Assembly: GCA_958296055.1 (NCBI GenBank)
Contig: CATQHS010000001.1
Span: 1,956,277-2,020,276 of the forward strand
Reading direction: 5' to 3'
Length of the DNA stretch: 64,000 nt
DNA from: an uncultured Acidimicrobiales bacterium
GTDB lineage: Bacteria; Actinomycetota; Acidimicrobiia; Acidimicrobiales; Aldehydirespiratoraceae
The notes under the pieces are model-generated. The model was not told the DNA's origin, ran no database searches, and saw only the letters and a list, made by a program, of their open reading frames with translations. This document shows, one piece after another, positions 2,774-61,424 of the stretch; positions within the stretch are counted from its first letter, which is position 1, and every line of letters starts with the position of its first letter. Both the position numbers and the translations under genes were made by a program.

Positions 2774-3136
2774 GTGCCCCGGATCCATTTCAAGACCACC
2801 GACCGGTACTACGAGTTCCCCGACGGCGACGAGGTCAACATCCTGCGGGTGTCGATCCGGGCCGACTGCGGCCTGCCTTGGAAGTGCGCCAGCGGCAACT
2901 GCGGCACCGACCGGATGGTGATCGAGCAGGGGGCCGAGAACCTCGACCCGCCCCGCCGCCGGGAGCGGGAGCGGTTGGGCGACCTGCTCGACCAGGGCTA
3001 CCGGCTGGCCTGCCAGACCTACGCCCGAGGCGACGTGACCGTGGCCTGGGACCCCGACCAGGTGGGCCTGGACGAGGAGTCTCGGGCCGGTCAGCGCCTC
3101 AAGGCCAAGTGGCTCGGCGCCGCCGACGGCGACTGA
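2774..3136 (+). CDS. [2Fe-2S] ferredoxin-like protein with Cys-to-Asp change
   Basis: A 120-residue protein starting at GTG 2774, 83 bases after the diiron gene. The plant/adrenodoxin-type motif LPxxC-x4-C-x2-C is present as C38, C43 and D46, with the distal cysteine at C80 in RLACQT. The third cysteine is therefore Asp (codon GAC), while an extra Cys sits at C32, six residues before C38. The cluster may use Asp or C32 as ligand, or may be absent. Context suggests an electron carrier to the preceding diiron protein. The last 38 bases overlap the convergent membrane-protein gene. Confidence 0.75.
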   Translation: MPRIHFKTTDRYYEFPDGDEVNILRVSIRADCGLPWKCASGNCGTDRMVIEQGAENLDPPRRRERERLGDLLDQGYRLACQTYARGDVTVAWDPDQVGLDEESRAGQRLKAKWLGAADGD

Positions 3137-3827
3137 TGCCCTTCCCAAGCAACCACAACGTATACGCTAGCATTAATAGTAGCTTCTTACATGGCAGTCT
3201 TAGTGGTTTTGCCCTTTTACCTTTTTTGCTTATCTCTTCCTGAAATATTAGATTGAATAGTCGAAATCCAATATGAAAAAGATGACAGATCATAAGTACC
3301 AAAATTACACACACAAATAGTGCATATATGCACCGAACAGGTATAGCAGGCGTGTACCATGGGTAGGACTGCTCCTTTATTACCCAATTTGCAGGTACTA
3401 TAGAAAAAAGTAGCCATGAAAGAAAGGCTAAAGAACCCATAGGTATAATATCTAGAATTCCTAGCATGGCCTTTGCCTGCTTTTTAAAGAATTTATAAGA
3501 CTTAGATTGGATATAAACAGCTAGATAAATAAAGAATGCTAAGCAAAGTATCAAAATTGTCGCGGGTATGATGATAACTACTGGTTGGGAATTTGTAAGA
3601 AACAAGATCGAAATAATAACACTAACCCACGATGCAAAATATAAGCTATTGAATCTTCGATATTTTCGGATCCAAGCCGGGTCAATTTGCAGGTCAGATC
3701 CGTGCATGTATAAAAGACTAAGAGCTACGATAGCAGAGCTAACTACAGCACCAACTATAATAAGTGGTCCAGTGTTATCCAGCGCTCCGGTTGCTGCTTC
3801 AGCCACTTGCAGTAGCAAATTTCCCAT
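3099..3827 (-). CDS. AT-rich hypothetical membrane protein, five predicted segments
   Basis: A 242-residue protein of unknown function. The ATG at 3827 follows AGGGAGCGAA, a good ribosome site. Hydrophobic segments lie near residues 21-41, 63-78, 83-107, 123-145 and 164-188, with a basic Lys-rich tail. Base composition is far lower in GC than both sides and changes sharply near 3140 and 3925, indicating acquired DNA. The final residues (GISRRRRRRATWP) are encoded by the antisense of the ferredoxin gene, so the natural C-terminus was probably lost on insertion. It sits inside what looks like a diiron-ferredoxin-Rieske operon, in the opposite direction. Confidence 0.65.
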   Translation of the reverse strand: MGNLLLQVAEAATGALDNTGPLIIVGAVVSSAIVALSLLYMHGSDLQIDPAWIRKYRRFNSLYFASWVSVIISILFLTNSQPVVIIIPATILILCLAFFIYLAVYIQSKSYKFFKKQAKAMLGILDIIPMGSLAFLSWLLFSIVPANWVIKEQSYPWYTPAIPVRCIYALFVCVILVLMICHLFHIGFRLFNLIFQEEISKKGKRAKPLRLPCKKLLLMLAYTLWLLGKGISRRRRRRATWP

Positions 3828-3932
3828 TTCGCTCCCTAAACTAGACCCGAGTCCTATTTTGCCATTCGTACTGTTATACTACACCTTCATGCTGATCATA
3901 GCAAATAATTTTCAATCGAAGGATGGGGCCTG

Positions 3933-4265
3933 ATGCCGCCGTTTCGAGGCTGGGCCGACTTGGTCGCCGAGGACGACTTGGCCCGGGCGGGCAAGCTGGT
4001 GGTCAGCCACGAGCGCCACGAGATCCTGCTGTTATGGAACGACGGCTCGCCGGTGGCGTTGTCCAACATCTGCATCCACCGGGGCCGCAAGCTGAACGAG
4101 GGGGTGATGCTTGGGTCCCGGCTGGTGTGCGCCGGCCACCAGTGGGCCTACGAGATCGCCACCGGCTACTGCGCAGCCCGGGACCGCTACCAGCCCCGCT
4201 ACAACTTGGAAGTGGCCGACGGCCGCATCCGAGTCGAGTTCCCCGCCCGCCGCGGCCCCGCCTGA
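3933..4265 (+). CDS. Rieske [2Fe-2S] domain protein
   Basis: A 110-residue single-domain Rieske protein with C47-x-H49 and C66-x2-H69, the two His and two Cys that hold a [2Fe-2S] cluster, set in NICIHRGRKL and LVCAGHQWAYE. The size fits a free Rieske ferredoxin, as in oxygenase electron-transfer chains, not a catalytic oxygenase subunit. GC content is back to the local norm immediately at this gene. It probably once followed the ferredoxin gene directly and serves the diiron protein, with the AT-rich gene inserted between. Confidence 0.88.
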   Translation: MPPFRGWADLVAEDDLARAGKLVVSHERHEILLLWNDGSPVALSNICIHRGRKLNEGVMLGSRLVCAGHQWAYEIATGYCAARDRYQPRYNLEVADGRIRVEFPARRGPA

Positions 4266-7199: not shown

Positions 7200-7244
7200 G
7201 CCTTTACCTTGTTCTTTTTAACGACTATCCGATAGGTGAATACG

Positions 7245-8630
7245 ATGCGAAAAAAGGTTCCTGCACTTAAAGTATCTCAGTGGTTATCTGGATGGGAAAA
7301 GGCTGATTTCTCTCCTGATAAATTTCGAAGGAAACCACCTGAACAATTTTTCTTATTCTCTATGGAAGCATCTGAACTGAGGCGATTGATTGGGATTCAG
7401 CGCCGTTCGTCTAAAGCTGGAACACCACGAAATCAGGATCTTGGGATTCAACGTGCTCACGAAAGAACCAGATCAATTGAGATTGCCGATTATGTCAAAT
7501 ACGGATTTCCTTGGTCCAAACTGAGCCCACGAAAACGTGAAGCTAATGAATATGCGGATCTTATAAAGCCAGGCTGGTTACCGACAGCTATGGTTGTAAA
7601 TATCCTATTACCTGAAGATGACCGTAAAGGTAAATCAGTTAATACAAAAGACCTAGTAACAGTTGATCTCCAGAACTTTCTAGCTTATATTGAGATACCG
7701 GATACAACTGAGTATGGTTGGGAACTCTCTGGGGTTCCGCCAATTGAAATAATCGATGGACAGCATCGACTGTGGGCTTTTGATGAAGAAGTTGAGGGTT
7801 ATGAAGTTCCGGTTGTTGCGTTTCTAGGGCTAGATAGAAGTTGGCAAGCTTATCTCTTTTACACTATAAATATTTCCCCTAAGAAGATAAACCCTAGCCT
7901 AGCTTATGATTTGTATCCGTTGTTGCGTACTGAAGACTGGCTAGAAAAATTTGAAGGGCATTTTGTTTATCGTGAAACAAGAGCTCAGGAACTAACGGAA
8001 GCTTTGTGGTCACATGAAGCAAGTCCTTGGTTTAGACGCATAAATATGCTTGGTGAACGTGGTCGAAAGACGGTTACTCAAGCTTCATGGATTAGAAGTT
8101 TGTTGGCAACTTTTGTCAAAAGTTGGGAAGGTAAAAGAGTACAAATTGGCGGGCTTTTTGGTGCTCCAGTTGGCCAGGACGAGTTGGTTCTTCCTTGGTC
8201 TCGAGCACAACAAGCAGCGTTTCTTATCTATGCGTGGCGAGAGTTTGAGAAGGCAATAGATAAAGTTCAACCTGAGTGGGCAGATGCTTTAAATTCTTCA
8301 GAAGATCAAGCAACTAGTAATCCTGGTATGCGATCCGGTTATTCAATGCTAAATTCAGATATGGGAGTGCGAGGATTTCTATATACTTTAAATGATCTAT
8401 GCTATGTTAAGGTTGAGCAACTTGAATTGCGCTTATGGGAGCAAGAAATTGGTAACTCTGCGACTTCAAATTCAGATATAACTTTGGCACTTGAAAGCCT
8501 TAAAGAAATTGCTGTAGCTGAGTTCATTACAACACTTATGGAAACACTTGCCCAGTATGACTGGCGTTCTTCCAATGAACCTAATCTCACACTTGAGGAG
8601 CATCAGCTAAAAGGCGAGATTCAGGGGTAG
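7245..8630 (+). CDS. DGQHR-domain (DndB-like) protein, C-terminus frameshifted
   Basis: A 461-residue protein from ATG 7245, preceded by AGGTGA. The signature DGQHR is at about residues 171-175 in IEIIDGQHRLWAF. DGQHR proteins include DndB, the regulator of DNA phosphorothioation clusters, and members of other defence islands; the biochemical role outside dnd is unclear. No dndCDE genes are in view. Base composition is AT-rich, unlike the flanks, which indicates acquisition. The frame stops at TAG 8628-8630 after a run of four G (8624-8627); losing one G opens about 43 more residues to 8757 with protein-like composition (GYRELRQELLQFV...). The gene is either mutated, misread, or frameshifted in expression. 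Confidence 0.8.
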   Translation: MRKKVPALKVSQWLSGWEKADFSPDKFRRKPPEQFFLFSMEASELRRLIGIQRRSSKAGTPRNQDLGIQRAHERTRSIEIADYVKYGFPWSKLSPRKREANEYADLIKPGWLPTAMVVNILLPEDDRKGKSVNTKDLVTVDLQNFLAYIEIPDTTEYGWELSGVPPIEIIDGQHRLWAFDEEVEGYEVPVVAFLGLDRSWQAYLFYTINISPKKINPSLAYDLYPLLRTEDWLEKFEGHFVYRETRAQELTEALWSHEASPWFRRINMLGERGRKTVTQASWIRSLLATFVKSWEGKRVQIGGLFGAPVGQDELVLPWSRAQQAAFLIYAWREFEKAIDKVQPEWADALNSSEDQATSNPGMRSGYSMLNSDMGVRGFLYTLNDLCYVKVEQLELRLWEQEIGNSATSNSDITLALESLKEIAVAEFITTLMETLAQYDWRSSNEPNLTLEEHQLKGEIQG

Positions 8631-8757
8631 CGGTGGGTATCGTGAGTTGCGTCAGGAGCTTCTTCAGTTTGTTTCCGATTCGGCCGGAGGAAGCTTGGTT
8701 GGTGAAGCTGCGAATGAAGTGCTGCATCGACTTGGTATGTCACCGTATGCAACTTAG
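8628..8757 (+). other. Out-of-frame C-terminal extension of the DGQHR gene
   Basis: Reading from 8629 in the +1 frame gives about 43 residues (SGGYRELRQELL..., ...NEVLHRLGMSPYAT) with an ordinary helical composition and a stop at 8755-8757. Its stop overlaps the ATG at 8747 of the next gene, the arrangement expected of two adjacent coupled genes, which supports this being the original end of the DGQHR protein. Confidence 0.5.
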
Positions 8758-10087
8758 TAATTCTGACATAGATATATTAAAAGAGGCCTCAACTGAAGGT
8801 ATCGTTAACCAGTTTAGTAGGATTAAAGCATACAATACGAATGAGCAATGGTTGGATATTGGAAATGTTTATAAGTCTGACCCGGTAACGAGAATCAATT
8901 TAGAAAAAGATGGAGAAAAGACAAGAAAGTCTTTACAGCTAGCCGATTACATAGCTGTTTCATCTCCGACGCATCTCTGGGATGGATGGAATTATTTGGG
9001 TTTAGCACTTTATTCATATGTATGTGGATATACAGCTAACGCTAAACACCTTGCATATTATGCTGAATTGCGAGTTGCAATGTCACTTCTAGCATCACAG
9101 GGCGTCGGGATTTTCAATCGATGTCATTTCGTCGTTGATAAGAACAGCAATGTATATGAGCTAGCCCATATAAGTACGCATGATGCAACTTGGCTATATC
9201 TAGAGCAATGGGCTGATGGAGGTGGTTCGAAATATTTTTTGGATCGCGCGCTTCGGGTTCAATCTTACTCTTTTACTGATTGGCTTAGAGCCTTTCCACA
9301 CGGTGGTGCATTGGCACCGGTTGGCGCTGAACGATTGCTTTCAATGGCGTTTGATCTTCGGTGTATGAAGGAAGACCGTAAGGCTAGGAACGAGGCGAGT
9401 TATAGACCGACAGGAATTGTTGTATCCGAGGTTAGAGATCTTAAAGCAGATGTTGAATTTGTCGTTGAATCGATCCGTCTTCTCGAACCGGGAGGTTTGT
9501 TAGGAACCTTTGAAATGGATAAATTCATTCTTCGCCAAGTTATTGAGCGTGCCTTTGATAGCGGAAATGAAGATATTAGATCCAAAGTTCATGGGTTAGA
9601 AAAGTTTCGTAGTTCTGTCGTAGCTATGGTTGCGAATTTAATGGATAATCCTGATTTACAAAAGAATTTTAGAGAGTTCTTTACTCGTGAGTTGGATGCT
9701 GAGGAACCTCGGTTATTAAGGGAGGCAGAAAAACGAAATAATCATAACGATGAAGGCTATCATTTTCAAGTGATTAGTCGCGCAATACTCCTCCTAAGGG
9801 TTGCTACCAGCATAGTTCGTGAGATGCTTAAGGATTCAGGTGTAAATCTTGACTCATTAGAATTTTGGTGGCGTGATATTGGGCGTACTCAAGGATTTTG
9901 GAAAGCTCCTTTTGAATCAGTAGATAGCTTTCAATTATGGGATGATTTTAGTAGCTATTTGGATGATATTGATCGCTGGATTGATGGTGATCATTGCTCG
10001 AGACAGAGCTTACTTATAGATTGTGCTGTCCCATTGACCCAGATAACAGGGTTGGCTAAATTTGCTCTTATAGGACTTGCCCTATAA
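8747..10087 (+). CDS. Unknown protein, partner of the DGQHR gene
   Basis: A 446-residue protein from ATG 8747. The open frame begins at 8633, but the first 38 codons overlap the restored end of the DGQHR gene and look like a shadow; ATG 8747 overlaps that gene's stop by 11 bases. No domain was recognised. Features seen: a helical AYYAELRVAMSLLASQG region followed by FNRCHFVVD (about residues 100-125), a conserved-looking DATWLYLEQWADGGG, an acidic and basic central helical part (EKRNNHNDEGYH) and a Trp-rich end. No transmembrane segment except a weakly hydrophobic last 15 residues. AT-rich like its neighbour, so transferred with it. A defence or modification role is suggested only by context. 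Confidence 0.65.
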   Translation: MQLSNSDIDILKEASTEGIVNQFSRIKAYNTNEQWLDIGNVYKSDPVTRINLEKDGEKTRKSLQLADYIAVSSPTHLWDGWNYLGLALYSYVCGYTANAKHLAYYAELRVAMSLLASQGVGIFNRCHFVVDKNSNVYELAHISTHDATWLYLEQWADGGGSKYFLDRALRVQSYSFTDWLRAFPHGGALAPVGAERLLSMAFDLRCMKEDRKARNEASYRPTGIVVSEVRDLKADVEFVVESIRLLEPGGLLGTFEMDKFILRQVIERAFDSGNEDIRSKVHGLEKFRSSVVAMVANLMDNPDLQKNFREFFTRELDAEEPRLLREAEKRNNHNDEGYHFQVISRAILLLRVATSIVREMLKDSGVNLDSLEFWWRDIGRTQGFWKAPFESVDSFQLWDDFSSYLDDIDRWIDGDHCSRQSLLIDCAVPLTQITGLAKFALIGLAL

Positions 10088-10183
10088 TTATCTTAAAATT
10101 TACCGCAGATCACAATCTTCCGCAATTCACATGGACGACGGCTCCTATGGTGGTGGATCCAACAGCTACTCAAAAGCCATAGC

Positions 10184-10882
10184 TTATGAGGTACTGCCAG
10201 TCTTTGCTTCAGGCAAGTTGATCAATGAGAATTGTTTTGGAGCTGAACCATTATCTGAGCTTTGATACATCGGATGTTGTTGGCCACGTGGCATGACATT
10301 TGGGTCGGATTCGTGACCCCAGACGGCCCAGTTTCTTTGAGGGTAGCGAGCGAAAATCTCTAAATATGGTCCAGGTGAACATGCTTCAATGATGGCATAT
10401 TGCTCATCCGGCTTCCTAGAATGTTCGCGCTTGCGAGATTCGATTAGGTTCACTTGGCGGCGACCTGGATCTAAAGTCCGCAGTTTACCGCGAACTCCAA
10501 AGAGGATGGCTTCGGTGACATTCCGAAAATAGAAGCCGACCCCCCGTCCGTCTGGTCTGCCGTCCTTCCTGCGCTTTGTCCACACAATCATAGCTTTGTA
10601 TGTGAAGCCCCAAGCTTCCACTACATGGAGTCCTTCATTGAGGAGCGCGTTAGGAACCCACAAATAACAGTGAGACTTATCCGCCATAAGATCGGTTATG
10701 GGAAGCTCTGCAATGTCCTTTAAAGTCATGGTATCGTACCGGGACAGCCGCCGGTGCTCTGGAGCGACCTTGCCCGTGCGGTTCTGGAAGCGCCACGGCG
10801 GGTCGGCGAGCAGCGTGCGGAAGGGTTGGCCGCCGAGCGATTCGAGATCGAGGCCGTCGGAGCATTTCGGATGGCTGCTCAC
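10184..10882 (-). CDS. MT-A70 family N6-adenine methyltransferase
   Basis: A 232-residue enzyme with the catalytic DPPW motif at about residues 26-30 (LLADPPWRF) and the family's C-terminal GPYLEIFARYPQRNWAVWGHE, a SAM-binding Asn/Glu region. MT-A70 proteins transfer methyl from SAM to N6 of adenine in DNA or RNA; bacterial copies in islands are usually DNA methylases. The start ATG overlaps the stop of the RAMA-like gene upstream by four bases, so the two are translated together. It converges on the unknown protein gene. GC is intermediate, between the island core and the genome. Confidence 0.88.
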   Translation of the reverse strand: MSSHPKCSDGLDLESLGGQPFRTLLADPPWRFQNRTGKVAPEHRRLSRYDTMTLKDIAELPITDLMADKSHCYLWVPNALLNEGLHVVEAWGFTYKAMIVWTKRRKDGRPDGRGVGFYFRNVTEAILFGVRGKLRTLDPGRRQVNLIESRKREHSRKPDEQYAIIEACSPGPYLEIFARYPQRNWAVWGHESDPNVMPRGQQHPMYQSSDNGSAPKQFSLINLPEAKTGSTS

Positions 10883-11154
10883 GAACCCCTCCTGATCTCG
10901 TCAAGCGTTTTGCCGCCGAGTCGCGGAACGCGCCAACGAATCCACCCATCGGCAGACTTGGCGTTCAGCGCCGCCTTGGCTGCACCGGAAGGCGTCGCGT
11001 ACGGCTTGCCGTCCACGACCACGTTGCCGTGATTGTCCAAAATCCCGTCGATCGGTGCTGCCGATCGACGGTTGATCACAAGTTTCTCGTTCGGGTTGAG
11101 GCGTCCGTCAGCGATCAACTCGCGAACGGACTCGGTGCCTGTAGTGCGTGCCAC
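10879..11154 (-). CDS. RAMA-like small protein coupled to the methyltransferase
   Basis: A 91-residue protein starting at GTG 11154 with AGGAGG about seven bases upstream. Its second half (GKPYATPSGAAKAALNAKSADGWIRWRVP) matches the pattern of RAMA/DUF4357 domains: a Tyr-Ala-(T/S)-Pro-Ser-Ala-Ala helix and a Gly-Trp-x-x-Trp strand. RAMA domains are found attached to or beside restriction enzymes and adenine methylases and are thought to read modified DNA. Here it is a separate protein in an ATGA overlap with the methyltransferase, probably giving target selection or sensing of methylation. Confidence 0.7.
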   Translation of the reverse strand: MARTTGTESVRELIADGRLNPNEKLVINRRSAAPIDGILDNHGNVVVDGKPYATPSGAAKAALNAKSADGWIRWRVPRLGGKTLDEIRRGS

Positions 11155-11174
11155 GCTTTCCTCCTTCTTGGTCG

Positions 11175-11206
11175 GATCTTCGGATCTTCAGATCTAGAGA
11201 TCTATA
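11175..11206. repeat. Four tandem 8-bp repeats, each beginning GATCT
   Basis: Units GATCTTCG, GATCTTCA, GATCTAGA and GATCTATA follow each other without gaps, 20 bases upstream of the GTG of the RAMA-like gene. Every unit carries a GATC tetranucleotide, so four possible adenine-methylation sites are spaced exactly eight bases apart in the likely promoter of a methyltransferase operon. They could be a methylation-sensitive operator. Confidence 0.7.
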
Positions 11207-11957: not shown

Positions 11958-13092
11958 TAGTGGTCCGTCGCTGAAATGGTTGGGTCGTGTAGTGTTGTGG
12001 GATGACTCGTGTTGTGGAGATGTCGGCTGGGGATCGGGAGGAGTTGGGGCGTCTGGCCCGGTCCGGGGTTGAGCCTCATCGGCGGGTGGCGCCGGCCCGG
12101 GCGTTGTTGGCGTTGGCCGACGGGGCTTCGGTGCGGGCGACGGCCAGGGCGCTGGGCTCGCATCAGGACACGGTGCGGCGCTGGCGGGACCGGTTCGCGG
12201 TGTCGGGGGTGGCCGGTATTGGGGCGGTGGCGCCGGGGCGGGGTCGCAAGCCCCAGATCCCCGCGGCGACCGTGGAGGCGATCGTGGCCGACACGCTGCA
12301 CACCGTGCCCGAGGACGGCTCCGCGGCGTGGTCGACGCGGACGATGGCCGCCCGCCACGGCGTGGGCAAAGACACCGTGGCGCGCATCTGGAGGGCGCGG
12401 GGCCTGCGGCCCTGGCGCACCGAGACGTTCAAGCTGTCGGGCGACCCCGACTTCGAGGCCAAACTCGTCGACGTGGTGGGCCTGTATATGAACCCGCCCG
12501 AGCGGGCCGCGGTGTTCAGCTTCGACGAGAAAACCCAGTGCCAGGCCATAGACCGCACCCAGCCGTCGCTGCCGATGCGCCCGGGCCGAGCCCGCACGAT
12601 GACCCATGACTACAAACGCCACGGCACCACGGACCTGTTCGCCGCGCTCGACGTCGCCATCGGAGAGGTCCTGCACCAGACCCGACGCCGCCACACCGGA
12701 CGCGACGTGCTGGCCTTCTTCAAATGGATCGACCTGCACACCCCGCGGCGCCTCGACGTCCACATCGTTTTAGACAACCTCTCAGCCCACAAATCCGAGC
12801 CCGTGCGAACCTGGCTCGCGCACCCGAGGCGAAAGCGCTGGCACCTGCACTTCACCCCCACGTCCGCGTCGTGGCTCAACCTCGTCGAAGCCTGGTTCTC
12901 GGTGCTCACCCGCAAAGCCCTCGCCGACAACAGCTTCAGTTCCGTAGCCGACCTGACCGAAACCATCGACGCCTGGGCCCACAACTGGAACCACGACCCC
13001 AAACCCCTCACCTGGACCCGAACCGCCGACGACATCATCGCCAAAGTCAAACGAGGAAGAGCCGCCCTCACCAAAACCACGACATACCACTA
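11958..13092 (+). mobile_element. IS630-family insertion sequence with TA target duplication
   Basis: The element is bounded by TA dinucleotides at 11958-11959 and 13091-13092. Its ends are imperfect inverted repeats: TAGTGGTCCGTCG at the left and TAGTGGTATGTCG at the right (read inward), with a further shared TGGT. IS630 elements insert into TA and duplicate it. The element carries one transposase gene and interrupts a toxin gene, whose reading frame is restored when the element is removed. Confidence 0.85.
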
Positions 13093-13093
13093 G
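12002..13093 (+). CDS. IS630-family transposase
   Basis: A 363-residue DDE transposase. An N-terminal helix-turn-helix region (ATARALGSHQDTVRRWRDRF, about 40-60) is followed by a winged-helix linker and the catalytic core with Asp in VFSFDEKT, Asp in IVLDNLSAHKS and Glu in SWLNLVEAWFSVL. The frame is intact, so the element may still be active. The stop codon TAG uses the TA of the target duplication and the next flanking G. GC content and codon use are close to the host's, so the element may have come from a related genome. Confidence 0.92.
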   Translation: MTRVVEMSAGDREELGRLARSGVEPHRRVAPARALLALADGASVRATARALGSHQDTVRRWRDRFAVSGVAGIGAVAPGRGRKPQIPAATVEAIVADTLHTVPEDGSAAWSTRTMAARHGVGKDTVARIWRARGLRPWRTETFKLSGDPDFEAKLVDVVGLYMNPPERAAVFSFDEKTQCQAIDRTQPSLPMRPGRARTMTHDYKRHGTTDLFAALDVAIGEVLHQTRRRHTGRDVLAFFKWIDLHTPRRLDVHIVLDNLSAHKSEPVRTWLAHPRRKRWHLHFTPTSASWLNLVEAWFSVLTRKALADNSFSSVADLTETIDAWAHNWNHDPKPLTWTRTADDIIAKVKRGRAALTKTTTYH

Positions 13094-57035: not shown

Positions 57036-60000
57036 GTGGGATTCTCTGCGAAGATGGCTGGGTTGTCAGCGGTGCTGGCCGCCCCGGCGTTTGTCCTGCT
57101 TCTATCTGCTGTGCCCGCCCAAGCTCAGACCGGCTCGCCGTGTGACTCCGAGGCGGTTGTTCCCGCTGGCCAGGATGCCCTGAGAGCTGACTGCGAAGCT
57201 TTGTGGGATTTCTACACCCAACTCGATGACCCCGGCACCCTAGATGACGCGGGCGATGGCCAATGGGGACCGAACAACCCCCTTTCATCCTGGCAGGGCG
57301 TGACGGTCAATCCAAAGTCCGGGCTTGTAAGCGCATTGGATCTCAAGCGCAGCGATTTAGCCGGGCCGATCTCGCCCGCACTGGGTCAACTCACCGGGCT
57401 CACCTTGTTGGATCTGCGTGAGAATGGTTTGTCTGGTCCTATTCCGTCTGAGTTGGGTCAGCTCACCGGGCTCACTGTTTTGTATTTGTGGGATAACGAT
57501 TTGTCTGGTCCTATTCCGTCTGAGTTGGGTCAACTCACCGAGCTAACTTATTTGAGTTTGTCGCGTAATGGTTTGTCTGGTTCTATTCCGTCTGAGTTGG
57601 GTCGGATTTCTGGGCTGATTTGGTTGGCTTTGTCGCGTAATGGTTTGTCTGGTTCTATTCCGTCTGAGTTGGGTCAACTCACTGAACTCACTCAATTGTA
57701 TTTGTGGGATAATGGTTTGTCTGGTTCTATTCCGTCTGAGTTGGGTCAACTCACTGAACTGACTCATTTAGATCTGGCGGTTAATGGTTTGTCTGGTTCT
57801 ATTCCGTCTGAGTTGGGTCGGCTCACTGCGCTGACATCTCTGTATCTCAACGGTAATCAGTTGTCTGGTTCTATCCCGTCTGAGTTGGGACAGATGACCG
57901 CGCTGACATCCCTGAGTCTTAGAGATAATCAGTTGTCTGGTTCTATTCCGTCTGAGTTGGGTCGGCTCACTGCGCTGACAGAGCTGCGTCTCTACGGTAA
58001 TCGGTTGACTGGTTCTATTCCGTCTGAGTTGGGACAGATGACCGCGCTAAAAGTTCTTCGCCTTGAGCGTAATGGTTTGTCTGGTTCTATTCCGTCTGAG
58101 TTGGGTCGGCTCACTGCGCTGACATCTCTGAGTCTTAGAGATAATCAGTTGTCTGGTTCTATTCCGTCTGAGTTGGGTCGGCTCACTGCGCTGACATCTC
58201 TGTATCTCAACGGTAATCAGTTGTCTGGTTCTATCCCGTCTGAGTTGGGACAGATGACCGCGCTGACATCCCTGAGTCTTAGAGATAATCAGTTGTCTGG
58301 TTCTATTCCGTCTGAGTTGGGTCGGCTCACTGCGCTGACAGAGCTGCGTCTCTACGGTAATCAGTTGTCTGGTTCTATTCCGTCTGAGTTGGGACAGATG
58401 ACCGCGCTAAAAGTTCTTCGCCTTGAGCGTAATGGTTTGTCTGGTTCTATTCCGTCTGAGTTGGGTCGGCTCACTGCGCTGACATCTCTGTATCTCAACG
58501 GTAATCAGTTGTCTGGTTCTATCCCGTCTGAGTTGGGGCAGATGACCGCGCTGACATCTCTGAGTCTTAGAGATAATCAGTTGTCTGGTTTTATTCCGTC
58601 TGAGTTGGGTCGGCTCACTGCGCTGACAGAGCTGCGTCTCTACGGTAATCAGTTGTCTGGTTTTATTCCGTCTGAGTTGGGGCAGTTGACCGCGCTAAAA
58701 GTTCTTCGCCTTGAGCGTAATGCTTTGTCTGGTTCTATTCCGTCTGAGTTGGGTCGGCTCACTGCACTGACAGAGTTGCGTCTCTACGGTAATGCTTTGT
58801 CGGGGCGTTTGCCGTCTGGGTTGAGCCGGTTTGATCCCTATAGTCGGGGTCCGATGGGCCTCATTGACGGTACCGAGTCGCATCGGGAGTTCACGTTGAG
58901 CAGCGAGGTTTGGGATGTGTGGCTTTGCGACACGCCCGACGGGGATATTATCCGGGATTCGGATGAGGCGGTGGTGTTGCTGAACCGGGAGGTCACTCCG
59001 TATTATCGTTGGCTGTCCAGTGATCGCTACCAGCCCGGGTTCCGTTACGTCGGCAGAATTGACGGGCCTCACCTGGTTGGATGTGCCGAGGCGGTCAGAG
59101 CAGAACGCAAAGCGGTGTCGTCGGACAATCGGTTTGTGGTCATAGACGACACCGATGGTCGCGCTGGCTGGGCTAGCTCAGGTAAGGAAGGATCCGTTCA
59201 AATTGTTGGGCTGCATTTACCGATTATTATTCATGAGATCGGGCATGCTCTAGGGTTTCCACATTCTTATGGAGGCCTCATAAACTGGGAGTTAGATCGT
59301 TCCTTCGGAGGGCGCATATCGCGCATGGCCGGAGACGTGTACGAATATGATAACCCGATGGATCAGATGAGCGGAAATCGCGAATATAATGCGGCGACTA
59401 TCGCGGTGAATCGTTACGCGGCCGGGTGGATTGATCCGGTCAATGTTGCCATTCACCCTCAGGGCAAGGCCCACACGTATGTGCTGCGGCCCCCGGGGTT
59501 CGGGGGCACTCAGATGTTGGTTTTGCGGGATCCGCGGTTCGGGGTGATGATCACGCTGGGGGCACGGGTCGCCAAAGGCTACGATTCAGACATCCCCAAA
59601 GAAGGAGTAGAAGCATACAAAGTGGATCAGTTCACCCGGCGGACCCAGCAGACCCCGCCCCCTGAGCTGATTGGCATCACCGGCGAGAACCTCGACGATG
59701 AGACGAAGGCCGGGTTGACGCAGCATGTTCATTCGGTTGGCGATGTGTTCGAGGTGGGCACGGCGACGGTTGAGGTGCTGGAGCGGACTGGTGACAGGTT
59801 CAGGGTTCGGGTGGTCGATTCGGCGGAGTCGGTCTTCGCCGGGCGGTTCTCCGACGAGGACGGCAGCGCTCATGAGAGCAACATCGAGGCCGTCGCCGCT
59901 CGGGGTGTCACGGTGGGCTGCAGCCCGACCTATCCGGATCGGTTCTGCCCGGATCGGGTGGTGACCCGAGCCCAGATGATGGCTTTTCTGGCCCGGGCCT

Positions 60001-60392
60001 TGGGGGTGGAGGGCGCCGCGAGCTTGACGAGCCGTTTTGGCGATGTGTCCGGCGGGGCCTGGTACTCGCCTTACCTTGAGCGGTTGGCTGATTTGGGGGT
60101 GGCCGAGCCCTACGAGGACGGCACCTTCCGGCCCTCCGAACCCCTCACCCGCCGTGACATGGCCGTGTTCCTCGCCCGCGCTTTCTCGCACATCTCGGCG
60201 GCGGCCGAGCCGGCCGGGGCGTTCGAAGATGTGCCCGCCGCCGCTCCCGGCGCGGCCGAGGTGGAGGCCGTCCTCGCCGCCGGGGTCACCCGGGGGTGCT
60301 CGGCCGAGCCCATGCGCTACTGCCCCGACCGCTCGGTCACCCGAGCCCAGATGGCCTCCTTCCTGGCCCGAGCCCTCCAGGGCGCCCCATAG
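57036..60392 (+). CDS. Secreted LRR / metallopeptidase / SLH protein
   Basis: A 1118-residue exported protein from GTG 57036. A signal peptide (about 1-31, cut near AQA-QT) precedes a Cys-capped N-terminal region. Then about 20 plant-type leucine-rich repeats of 24 residues (LSGSIPSELGQLTALTSLYL type, about 115-590). Next is a domain with HEIGHALGFPH (about 733-743), the HExxHxxGxxH zinc motif of metzincins, then three SLH-like repeats (about 945-1115) with the GCSP...FCPDRVVTRAQM signature. It is probably a cell-surface peptidase held by SLH repeats, with the LRR part for binding. The LRR DNA has lower GC and different codon use than the rest, suggesting separate origin or repeat expansion. 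Confidence 0.85.
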   Translation: MGFSAKMAGLSAVLAAPAFVLLLSAVPAQAQTGSPCDSEAVVPAGQDALRADCEALWDFYTQLDDPGTLDDAGDGQWGPNNPLSSWQGVTVNPKSGLVSALDLKRSDLAGPISPALGQLTGLTLLDLRENGLSGPIPSELGQLTGLTVLYLWDNDLSGPIPSELGQLTELTYLSLSRNGLSGSIPSELGRISGLIWLALSRNGLSGSIPSELGQLTELTQLYLWDNGLSGSIPSELGQLTELTHLDLAVNGLSGSIPSELGRLTALTSLYLNGNQLSGSIPSELGQMTALTSLSLRDNQLSGSIPSELGRLTALTELRLYGNRLTGSIPSELGQMTALKVLRLERNGLSGSIPSELGRLTALTSLSLRDNQLSGSIPSELGRLTALTSLYLNGNQLSGSIPSELGQMTALTSLSLRDNQLSGSIPSELGRLTALTELRLYGNQLSGSIPSELGQMTALKVLRLERNGLSGSIPSELGRLTALTSLYLNGNQLSGSIPSELGQMTALTSLSLRDNQLSGFIPSELGRLTALTELRLYGNQLSGFIPSELGQLTALKVLRLERNALSGSIPSELGRLTALTELRLYGNALSGRLPSGLSRFDPYSRGPMGLIDGTESHREFTLSSEVWDVWLCDTPDGDIIRDSDEAVVLLNREVTPYYRWLSSDRYQPGFRYVGRIDGPHLVGCAEAVRAERKAVSSDNRFVVIDDTDGRAGWASSGKEGSVQIVGLHLPIIIHEIGHALGFPHSYGGLINWELDRSFGGRISRMAGDVYEYDNPMDQMSGNREYNAATIAVNRYAAGWIDPVNVAIHPQGKAHTYVLRPPGFGGTQMLVLRDPRFGVMITLGARVAKGYDSDIPKEGVEAYKVDQFTRRTQQTPPPELIGITGENLDDETKAGLTQHVHSVGDVFEVGTATVEVLERTGDRFRVRVVDSAESVFAGRFSDEDGSAHESNIEAVAARGVTVGCSPTYPDRFCPDRVVTRAQMMAFLARALGVEGAASLTSRFGDVSGGAWYSPYLERLADLGVAEPYEDGTFRPSEPLTRRDMAVFLARAFSHISAAAEPAGAFEDVPAAAPGAAEVEAVLAAGVTRGCSAEPMRYCPDRSVTRAQMASFLARALQGAP
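57822..58757. repeat. Higher-order 288-bp DNA repeats in the LRR region
   Basis: A block of four 24-residue repeats (288 bp) starts at 57822, 58182 and 58470. The second is 360 bases from the first because one extra 72-bp unit stands between them; the third is exactly 288 bases from the second. Blocks differ by few bases, so they arose by recent unequal exchange or slippage. All changes are multiples of 72 bases, keeping the frame. Confidence 0.75.
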
Positions 60393-60503: not shown

Positions 60504-61424
60504 TTGCTTCGATGGCTGATCCGGCGCGTCATCGCCGCTGCCTTGGTCGTTTTCGTGGTCACCTCGCTGGTGTTCGTGCTGACCCACGTGTTCACCGACC
60601 CGGCCGCGGTGTCGCTGCCCCTGGAGGCGTCTGAGGAGCTGCGGGAGGCCCGCCGGGAGCAGCTCGGGCTCAAGCGCCCGCTGATCGAACAGTACGGCGA
60701 GTTCGCCTTCGGGCTGGTCACCGGCGACCTGGGCGAGTCGTTCTGGCAGCAGCGGCCCGCCTCGGAGATAGTGCGCGAGCGCCTGCCCGCCACGCTCAAG
60801 CTGGTGGGCGGATCGGTGGTGGTCACCGTGATCTTGGCCGTGCCCCTGGGAATGCTGGCCGCCTGGCGGGAGAGAAAGTTCCCCGACCACGCTGTGCTGG
60901 GCTTCTCCATGGCCTTCATCAGCGCTCCGCCCTTCTGGATCGGCTATCTGCTGATCATCGTCTTCGCCGTCCAGCTCGACTGGGTGCCCACCTTCGGTTC
61001 CCGGGGTTGGACGTCGATCATCCTGCCGTCGGTGGCGGTCGGGCTGGCCAGCGCCGGTCGGCTGGCCCAGATGATACGCCGGGCCATCGTCGAGGAGCTG
61101 CGCCAGCCCTACGCGGTGACCGCCCAATCCCGGGGGTTCTCCCGCTCCTACACCATCACCCACCACGTCTTCCGCAACGTGGCCTCCAACTTCGTGACCT
61201 TCACCGGCTGGGAGATGACCCGCATGTTCACCGGCTACACGGTGGTGATCGAGGTGGTGTTCTCCTGGCCCGGCGTGGGCCTGATGGCCTTCAATGCCAT
61301 CGAGCAGAAGGACCTGATCCTGCTCCAGGCCGGGGTGGTGGTGCTGGCCGGGCTGGTGGTGTTCACCAACCTGGCCATCGACGTCCTCCGCCGGACCATC
61401 GATCCCAGGGTGGAGCTGCGGTGA
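60504..61424 (+). CDS. Peptide/nickel-type ABC transporter permease (DppB-like)
   Basis: A 306-residue permease from TTG 60504, six membrane segments. It begins MLRWLIRRVIAAALVVFVVTSLVFVLTHVFTDPA and has the EAA loop region RAIVEELRQPYAVTAQSRGFSRSYTITHHVFRN, the contact site for the ATPase. These proteins form one half of the pore for importing peptides or similar solutes. Stop overlaps the next permease start. No substrate-binding protein gene is in the window. Confidence 0.9.
   Translation: MLRWLIRRVIAAALVVFVVTSLVFVLTHVFTDPAAVSLPLEASEELREARREQLGLKRPLIEQYGEFAFGLVTGDLGESFWQQRPASEIVRERLPATLKLVGGSVVVTVILAVPLGMLAAWRERKFPDHAVLGFSMAFISAPPFWIGYLLIIVFAVQLDWVPTFGSRGWTSIILPSVAVGLASAGRLAQMIRRAIVEELRQPYAVTAQSRGFSRSYTITHHVFRNVASNFVTFTGWEMTRMFTGYTVVIEVVFSWPGVGLMAFNAIEQKDLILLQAGVVVLAGLVVFTNLAIDVLRRTIDPRVELR

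Follow-up and report, generated by a model that had tools for sequence, protein, structure and literature searches.

Do the four genes between positions 7245 and 11206 of a 64,000-nucleotide stretch of an uncultured Acidimicrobiales bacterium (the whole of which is called the window here) form one undescribed defence or modification system? The original prediction had grouped a DGQHR-domain protein, an unknown protein of 446 residues, an MT-A70 adenine methyltransferase and a RAMA-like protein into such a system. The first two of these, the DGQHR protein and what we call its partner, form an obligate pair with a linkage far beyond chance. They represent a real, widespread and apparently undescribed two-gene module that is tied to DNA modification. 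The four-gene unit, however, is not conserved.

In the window the DGQHR gene lies at 7236..8630 on the plus strand (464 residues as sequenced, from a GTG at 7236, with a possible in-frame ATG start at 7245) and is followed on the same strand by the partner gene at 8747..10087 (446 residues, ATG at 8747). The linkage was examined in 91 loci outside this genome, which were found through DGQHR. The scan with a DGQHR profile covered 84,980 species genomes, where 80 loci were found, and viral contigs, which contributed 9. According to the partner profile, the partner is encoded immediately downstream of DGQHR and on the same strand in 90 of the 91 loci, and in the sole exception (L020) the contig ends 68 nucleotides (nt) after the DGQHR gene. 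In the reverse search, which started from the partner, DGQHR preceded the partner and a methylase followed it in all eight viral-contig loci; four of the contigs were new and the other four had already been found via DGQHR. That the uncharacterized protein might be a core part of the system was thus borne out. The two genes form a tight operon, with a median distance of -1 nt between the DGQHR stop and the partner start (typically -4 to +3 nt). At least 17 named phyla, bacterial and archaeal, are represented among the loci, and the family distances of DGQHR and partner correlate with an r of 0.83, which partly reflects shared descent. In one locus (L091:6626-11517) what looks like an IS66-type insertion has divided the DGQHR gene into two parts and moved the partner about 2 kb away.

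Carriers of the pair include plasmids and viral contigs. A tblastn search on plasmids detected the partner in Rhizobium tumorigenes pRt932 and Zymomonas plasmid records and nowhere else. One pRt932 locus and one Zymomonas locus were opened, and in both the partner is immediately preceded by DGQHR and immediately followed by an adenine methylase. In phage records the partner was not found. Integrases and type I restriction-modification genes occur near the pairs, as a plain tally without a control set.

The link to DNA modification is given by the neighbouring genes. In 79 of the 91 loci the gene next to the pair encodes an adenine methylase, mostly in overlap with the partner gene (median -19 nt). 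The methylase belongs to the D12-type family in 56 loci, to the Dam-type D12 family in 18 and to the N6_N4 family in 6, in one of which (L020) it is three genes away. Dam is convergent with the pair in L083, L086 and L087, like the MT-A70 gene in the window. In four loci (L023, L036, L046 and L053) the methylase is replaced by Dnd-type genes. L023 encodes a DndC-like phosphoadenosine phosphosulfate (PAPS) reductase domain, a DndD-like ATPase and DndE (PF08870, 1.4e-42), and L036 is alike; in L053 an ABC ATPase, a phospholipase D (PLD)/superfamily 2 helicase and a cysteine desulfurase are found beside the pair, and in L046 only a cut-off desulfurase. L028 and L064 are truncated, or almost so, at the edges of contigs. 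Along the DGQHR tree the type of modification switches at least 13 times, with the starred branches forcing seven changes for D12 and six for Dam. Since the pairing stays constant over these changes, the modification module is exchangeable around a constant pair. The obligate pairing and the adjacent methylase, together with the absence of a match to any known-defence model beyond a weak likeness of DGQHR to DpdB, uphold the claim of an undescribed modification-linked system.

The MT-A70/RAMA cassette of the window behaves differently. The MT-A70 gene (10184..10882, minus strand, 232 residues, DPPW motif) is convergent with the pair and matches PF05063 with 94.7 bits (cut-off 23.9). It forms an operon with the RAMA gene (10879..11154, minus strand, 91 residues), with which it shares four bases. 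The RAMA protein reaches 53.6 bits with PF18755 (cut-off 35.2) and is likely a reader of modified DNA. No open reading frame (ORF) in the other 91 loci resembles either protein. Relatives of the MT-A70 protein with 65-73% identity are present in five related genomes, one of which (G447; locus L165, contig G447:C191) carries a stand-alone RAMA/MT-A70 cassette that overlaps as in the window. In these five genomes DGQHR was not found, by a scan without positive control, which makes this negative a weak one. Because the cassette is missing from all 91 loci and occurs elsewhere without DGQHR, it is in general independent of the pair. Co-occurrence across genomes, as proposed originally, therefore holds for DGQHR and partner, which are always together, whereas MT-A70 and RAMA stand beside the pair only here. 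In other relatives (L096-L098) the MT-A70 protein has an N-terminal extension that looks helix-turn-helix-like.

The DGQHR protein passes TIGR03187 with 78.2 bits (cut-off 58.85), and its DGQHR pentapeptide (residues 174-178; 7755-7769, plus strand) is invariant across 88 family sequences. With the DndB profile PF14072 the window protein scores 26.9, under the cut-off of 29.1, and with TIGR04172 (DNA phosphorothioation-associated DGQHR protein 1) 60.3 bits, under the equivalog cut-off of 450. Among the PADLOC-DB 2.0 models no strong match was obtained, only a weak likeness to DpdB. The AlphaFold2 model (predicted local distance difference test, pLDDT, 87.3) was aligned with VIA-align, and rows 1-10 were all ParB-family chains with Z 4.4-6.6. 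The best of them was PadC (Z 6.6, 99 aligned residues, root-mean-square deviation 2.8), and SspE (Z 3.1) and BrxU (Z 2.7) ranked lower; Foldseek gave no significant match. The protein thus models as a ParB-fold, nucleoside triphosphatase (NTPase)-like protein. Five loci (L066, L073, L076, L080 and L081) encode longer DGQHR proteins of about 720-740 residues, of which about 220 form an additional N-terminal domain, and in all five a D12 methylase is situated upstream, not downstream.

The partner, for which a family search and a structure prediction had been proposed, has no match in Pfam, NCBIfam or PDB sequences and only stray weak matches in PADLOC-DB 2.0. Its AlphaFold2 model is confident (pLDDT 92.5; predicted template modelling score, pTM, 0.93) and nearly all helical; Foldseek gave no significant match in PDB or among viral structures, and no HNH, restriction endonuclease or PLD-type chain stood out in the VIA rows. 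Pfam reported DUF262 and DUF1524 HNH in neither protein of the pair. Seven residues (H101, Y104, Y105, H145, R214, Y219 and R345) are invariant in 87 partner sequences, with H101 encoded at 9047-9049 and H145 at 9179-9181 on the plus strand. This enzyme-like set of histidines, tyrosines and arginines suggests that the partner is an enzyme.

We lean somewhat towards an anti-invader system that is based on DNA modification and has swappable self-marking enzymes, and of which the pair would be the half that senses and attacks. The obligate pairing, the operon structure, the exchange of modification modules, the ParB fold of DGQHR and the enzyme-like residues of the partner are shown by the data above, whereas the defence role, the reading of the mark and the activation are inferred. 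The linked enzyme, usually an adenine methylase, sometimes the Dnd phosphorothioation machinery and possibly MT-A70 in the window, would mark the host DNA. The DGQHR protein, acting as a ParB-fold NTP-binding switch, would read DNA for this mark and, upon meeting DNA in the wrong modification state, would activate the probably enzymatic, all-helical partner, for which a role as effector is plausible. The partner in turn may act as a HEPN-like RNase that shuts down the infected cell, or it may be a nuclease of another type. A bolder version, a categorically new immune module in which one universal reader-effector pair, with a new all-helical enzyme family, plugs into chemically unrelated self-marks (D12, Dam, N6_N4, MT-A70 and phosphorothioation) and unmarked DNA triggers an attack on RNA or another cell component and not on DNA, appears rather unlikely to us.

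That the partner is a HEPN-like RNase is possible, though somewhat short of probable. In HEPN RNases an Rx4-6H motif closes helix 3 and the residue after the R is polar (PMC3710099); in the partner R214-N215-x-x-S218-Y219 (the R-N-x-x-S-Y motif, residues 214-219; 9386-9403, plus strand) closes helix 204-219. In AbiV-type HEPN proteins the motif H is lost and an H in the insert between helices 2 and 3 is found instead (PMC3710099), a position that H145 of the partner would fit by analogy. The top VIA rows of the partner are the HEPN-containing Csm6 (Z 5.4 and 5.0), with HepS at 4.2. Several points weigh against this part of the proposal or against the whole of it. The H position of Rx4-6H is Y in 87/87 partner sequences, the Z values mentioned lie within the noise for helical models, and hhalign of the partner with four AbiV proteins and a PF05168 set gave no signal. 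The DGQHR scan profile was derived from three loci in which the partner was present, and distant DGQHR families lie outside the sample; moreover, five loci (L011, L034, L037, L040 and L074) have no recognised modification gene near the pair. Pfam on the 87 members yielded no HEPN family match, so that, as with hhalign, sequence comparison brought nothing for HEPN; a search with PF18739 matched nothing anywhere, controls included, and is uninformative. The HEPN likeness is a weak lead and not a finding.

Other explanations of the pair have to be weighed against the sensing and attacking roles. DNA-cutting restriction with type II or IV logic, where DGQHR or partner would be a DNA nuclease, the methylase would protect the sites and RNA would stay untouched, agrees with the tight operon with D12 and Dam methylases, with the nuclease activity reported for ParB/Srx proteins (PMC4619093) and with the nicking of DNA by the SspE and DndI effectors (PMC11662687). 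However, no known nuclease family was detected in either protein, and marks that range over D12, Dam, N6_N4 and phosphorothioation are unusual for a site-specific enzyme; we consider this explanation unlikely. The pair could also aid or control the modification itself, DGQHR being like DndB, an ATP-dependent negative regulator (PMC10853773), or like DpdB, an ATPase for base insertion, and the partner an accessory. For this speak the 68 of 88 DGQHR members that weakly match the PADLOC DpdB model (best 1.5e-9) and the Dnd genes that adjoin four pairs, but D12, Dam and N6_N4 methylases require no ATPase, the invariant H/R/Y set of the partner resembles that of an enzyme, and a single accessory for chemically unrelated modifiers is less natural than a single reader/effector; we consider it slightly less likely still. 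Random neighbourhood without any functional link could be argued from the single case of MT-A70 and RAMA; for DGQHR and partner it is already refuted by the 90/91 and 8/8 linkage across phyla, and its probability is close to nil.

For the window itself a further question arises, which does not compete with the proposed sensing and attacking roles: whether MT-A70 and RAMA, though neighbours in a mosaic island, are unrelated to the pair, which would have lost the methylase of its own and might be in decay. We regard this as slightly favoured. The guanine-plus-cytosine (GC) content steps from 41-42% in the pair to 53% in MT-A70 and 62% in RAMA, in a window of 69%. The low value of the pair in this GC-rich surrounding shows that the pair was gained by horizontal transfer. 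The cassette is found in none of the 91 loci and in relatives without DGQHR. On the other hand, methylase families are swapped freely elsewhere, with Dam convergent in three loci, so that MT-A70, a single case beside the pair and marked by the GC step in a family where swapping is the rule, is a possible stand-in for the usual methylase. The state of the window copy speaks on both sides as well. The DGQHR frame is broken by one surplus base in the run around 8609-8614, and its C-terminal tail is displaced to another frame (8609..8757, plus strand, by comparison of frame translations with family C-termini), where it reads KARFRGSGGYRELRQELLQF...SPYAT and stops at 8757. This tail aligns to the conserved C-terminus of the family, K-AFRGSGGYKELR-QLL, and the out-of-frame counterpart of AFRGSGGYKELR-QLL is ARFRGSGGYRELRQELLQF...SPYAT followed by the stop. 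Repaired by one base, the gene would share 11 bases with the partner start. In the partner, two nearly invariant tryptophans are lost (W243I and W442I), and the window copy sits on a long branch of the DGQHR tree (1.14 against a median of 0.37). Frameshift, substitutions and branch length hint at decay, and the first two are to be added to the points that weigh against the proposed sensing and attacking roles. However, all 77 strongly conserved positions that were tested in the DGQHR core are intact, so that the frameshift may have arisen recently or reflect a sequencing error at 8609-8614, and the copy is no more than a possible pseudogene. The coordinates, the frame break of one base, the overlap of DGQHR and partner, the partner length and the four-base MT-A70/RAMA overlap had all been predicted correctly.

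Between partner and MT-A70 a six-frame search detected no remnant of a D12, Dam or N6_N4 methylase. The edges of the island could not be set, because in related genomes the flanking cupin is absent and the flanking hydrolase is only about 30% alike (empty-site comparison). An IS630-family transposase (12002..13093, plus strand; NF033545, 239.8 bits) is an island neighbour. Another low-GC patch (48.5%) at 2900-4000 holds an ORF of 242 residues (3099-3827, minus strand) for which a PDB search found no match. At 57036-60392 on the plus strand a leucine-rich repeat ORF of 1118 residues with 57% GC, against 69% for the window, strongly matches plant leucine-rich repeat receptor kinases in PDB (GSO1, 1e-153), which is unusual for a GC-rich bacterial contig. 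ARAGORN called a selenocysteine tRNA at 61260-61338 (plus strand).

Of a pair that is inseparable over at least 17 phyla, one protein has no place in any described family, and none of the searched libraries contains the cassette. The repeated exchange of the enzyme, including the change from base methylation to backbone phosphorothioation, is a natural test of one effector with different self-marks. The small cassette on plasmid pZZM405 of Zymomonas mobilis, a non-pathogen, makes the system directly testable; this record is from strain CP4, not ZM4 (PMC5930841). The plasmid (L170) also carries a DUF4433/macro-domain pair (DarTG-like), a type I restriction-modification system and two toxin-antitoxin pairs.

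A description of the DGQHR, partner and methylase cassette was not found in a literature search that left subscription papers and preprints mostly outside, and comparison was made with the systems closest to it. With restriction-modification systems it shares a DNA methylase in the operon, directly adjacent in the 79 loci given above; in the window the methylase is MT-A70 and convergent. With DndB and DndBCDE it shares a DGQHR protein that adjoins Dnd genes in four loci, but PF14072 stays below its cut-off, and DGQHR has about 510 residues, is always with the partner and lies mostly beside methylases. The weak DpdB matches recall the 7-deazaguanine (Dpd) systems, yet no DpdA-type gene was recognised among the neighbour clusters inspected, and the partner family and methylases are present instead. 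AbiV-type HEPN RNases resemble the partner in the polar residue after the motif R, the missing motif H and the conserved H upstream in an insert; they differ in that no sequence-profile similarity is detectable and the partner is much larger. The MAE_28990 HEPN family, for which a 2013 survey lists an operon shared with genes of a ParB nuclease and a DNA methylase (PMC3710099, Table 1), gives the gene combination a precedent, on paper the same set of a ParB-type protein, a helical protein and a methylase. However, its PF18737 matches 0/87 partner proteins, and it keeps Rx4-6H where the partner has R-N-x-x-S-Y. SspE, DndI, GmrSD and BrxU, which combine a ParB-fold DUF262 NTPase with an HNH nuclease, share with DGQHR the ParB/Srx-fold NTPase, the DGQ[HQ]R motif, the action from DNA modification and the occurrence with modification genes, and the DGQHR model aligns to both SspE and BrxU. 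Experiments have established SspE and DndI as ParB-fold NTPases which read phosphorothioation marks and drive a nuclease (PMC9646914; PMC11662687). In these proteins DUF1524 HNH is fused, whereas the module described here has a separate gene for an all-helical partner of undescribed fold, and in most cases the mark is adenine methylation, carried out by enzymes of three families.

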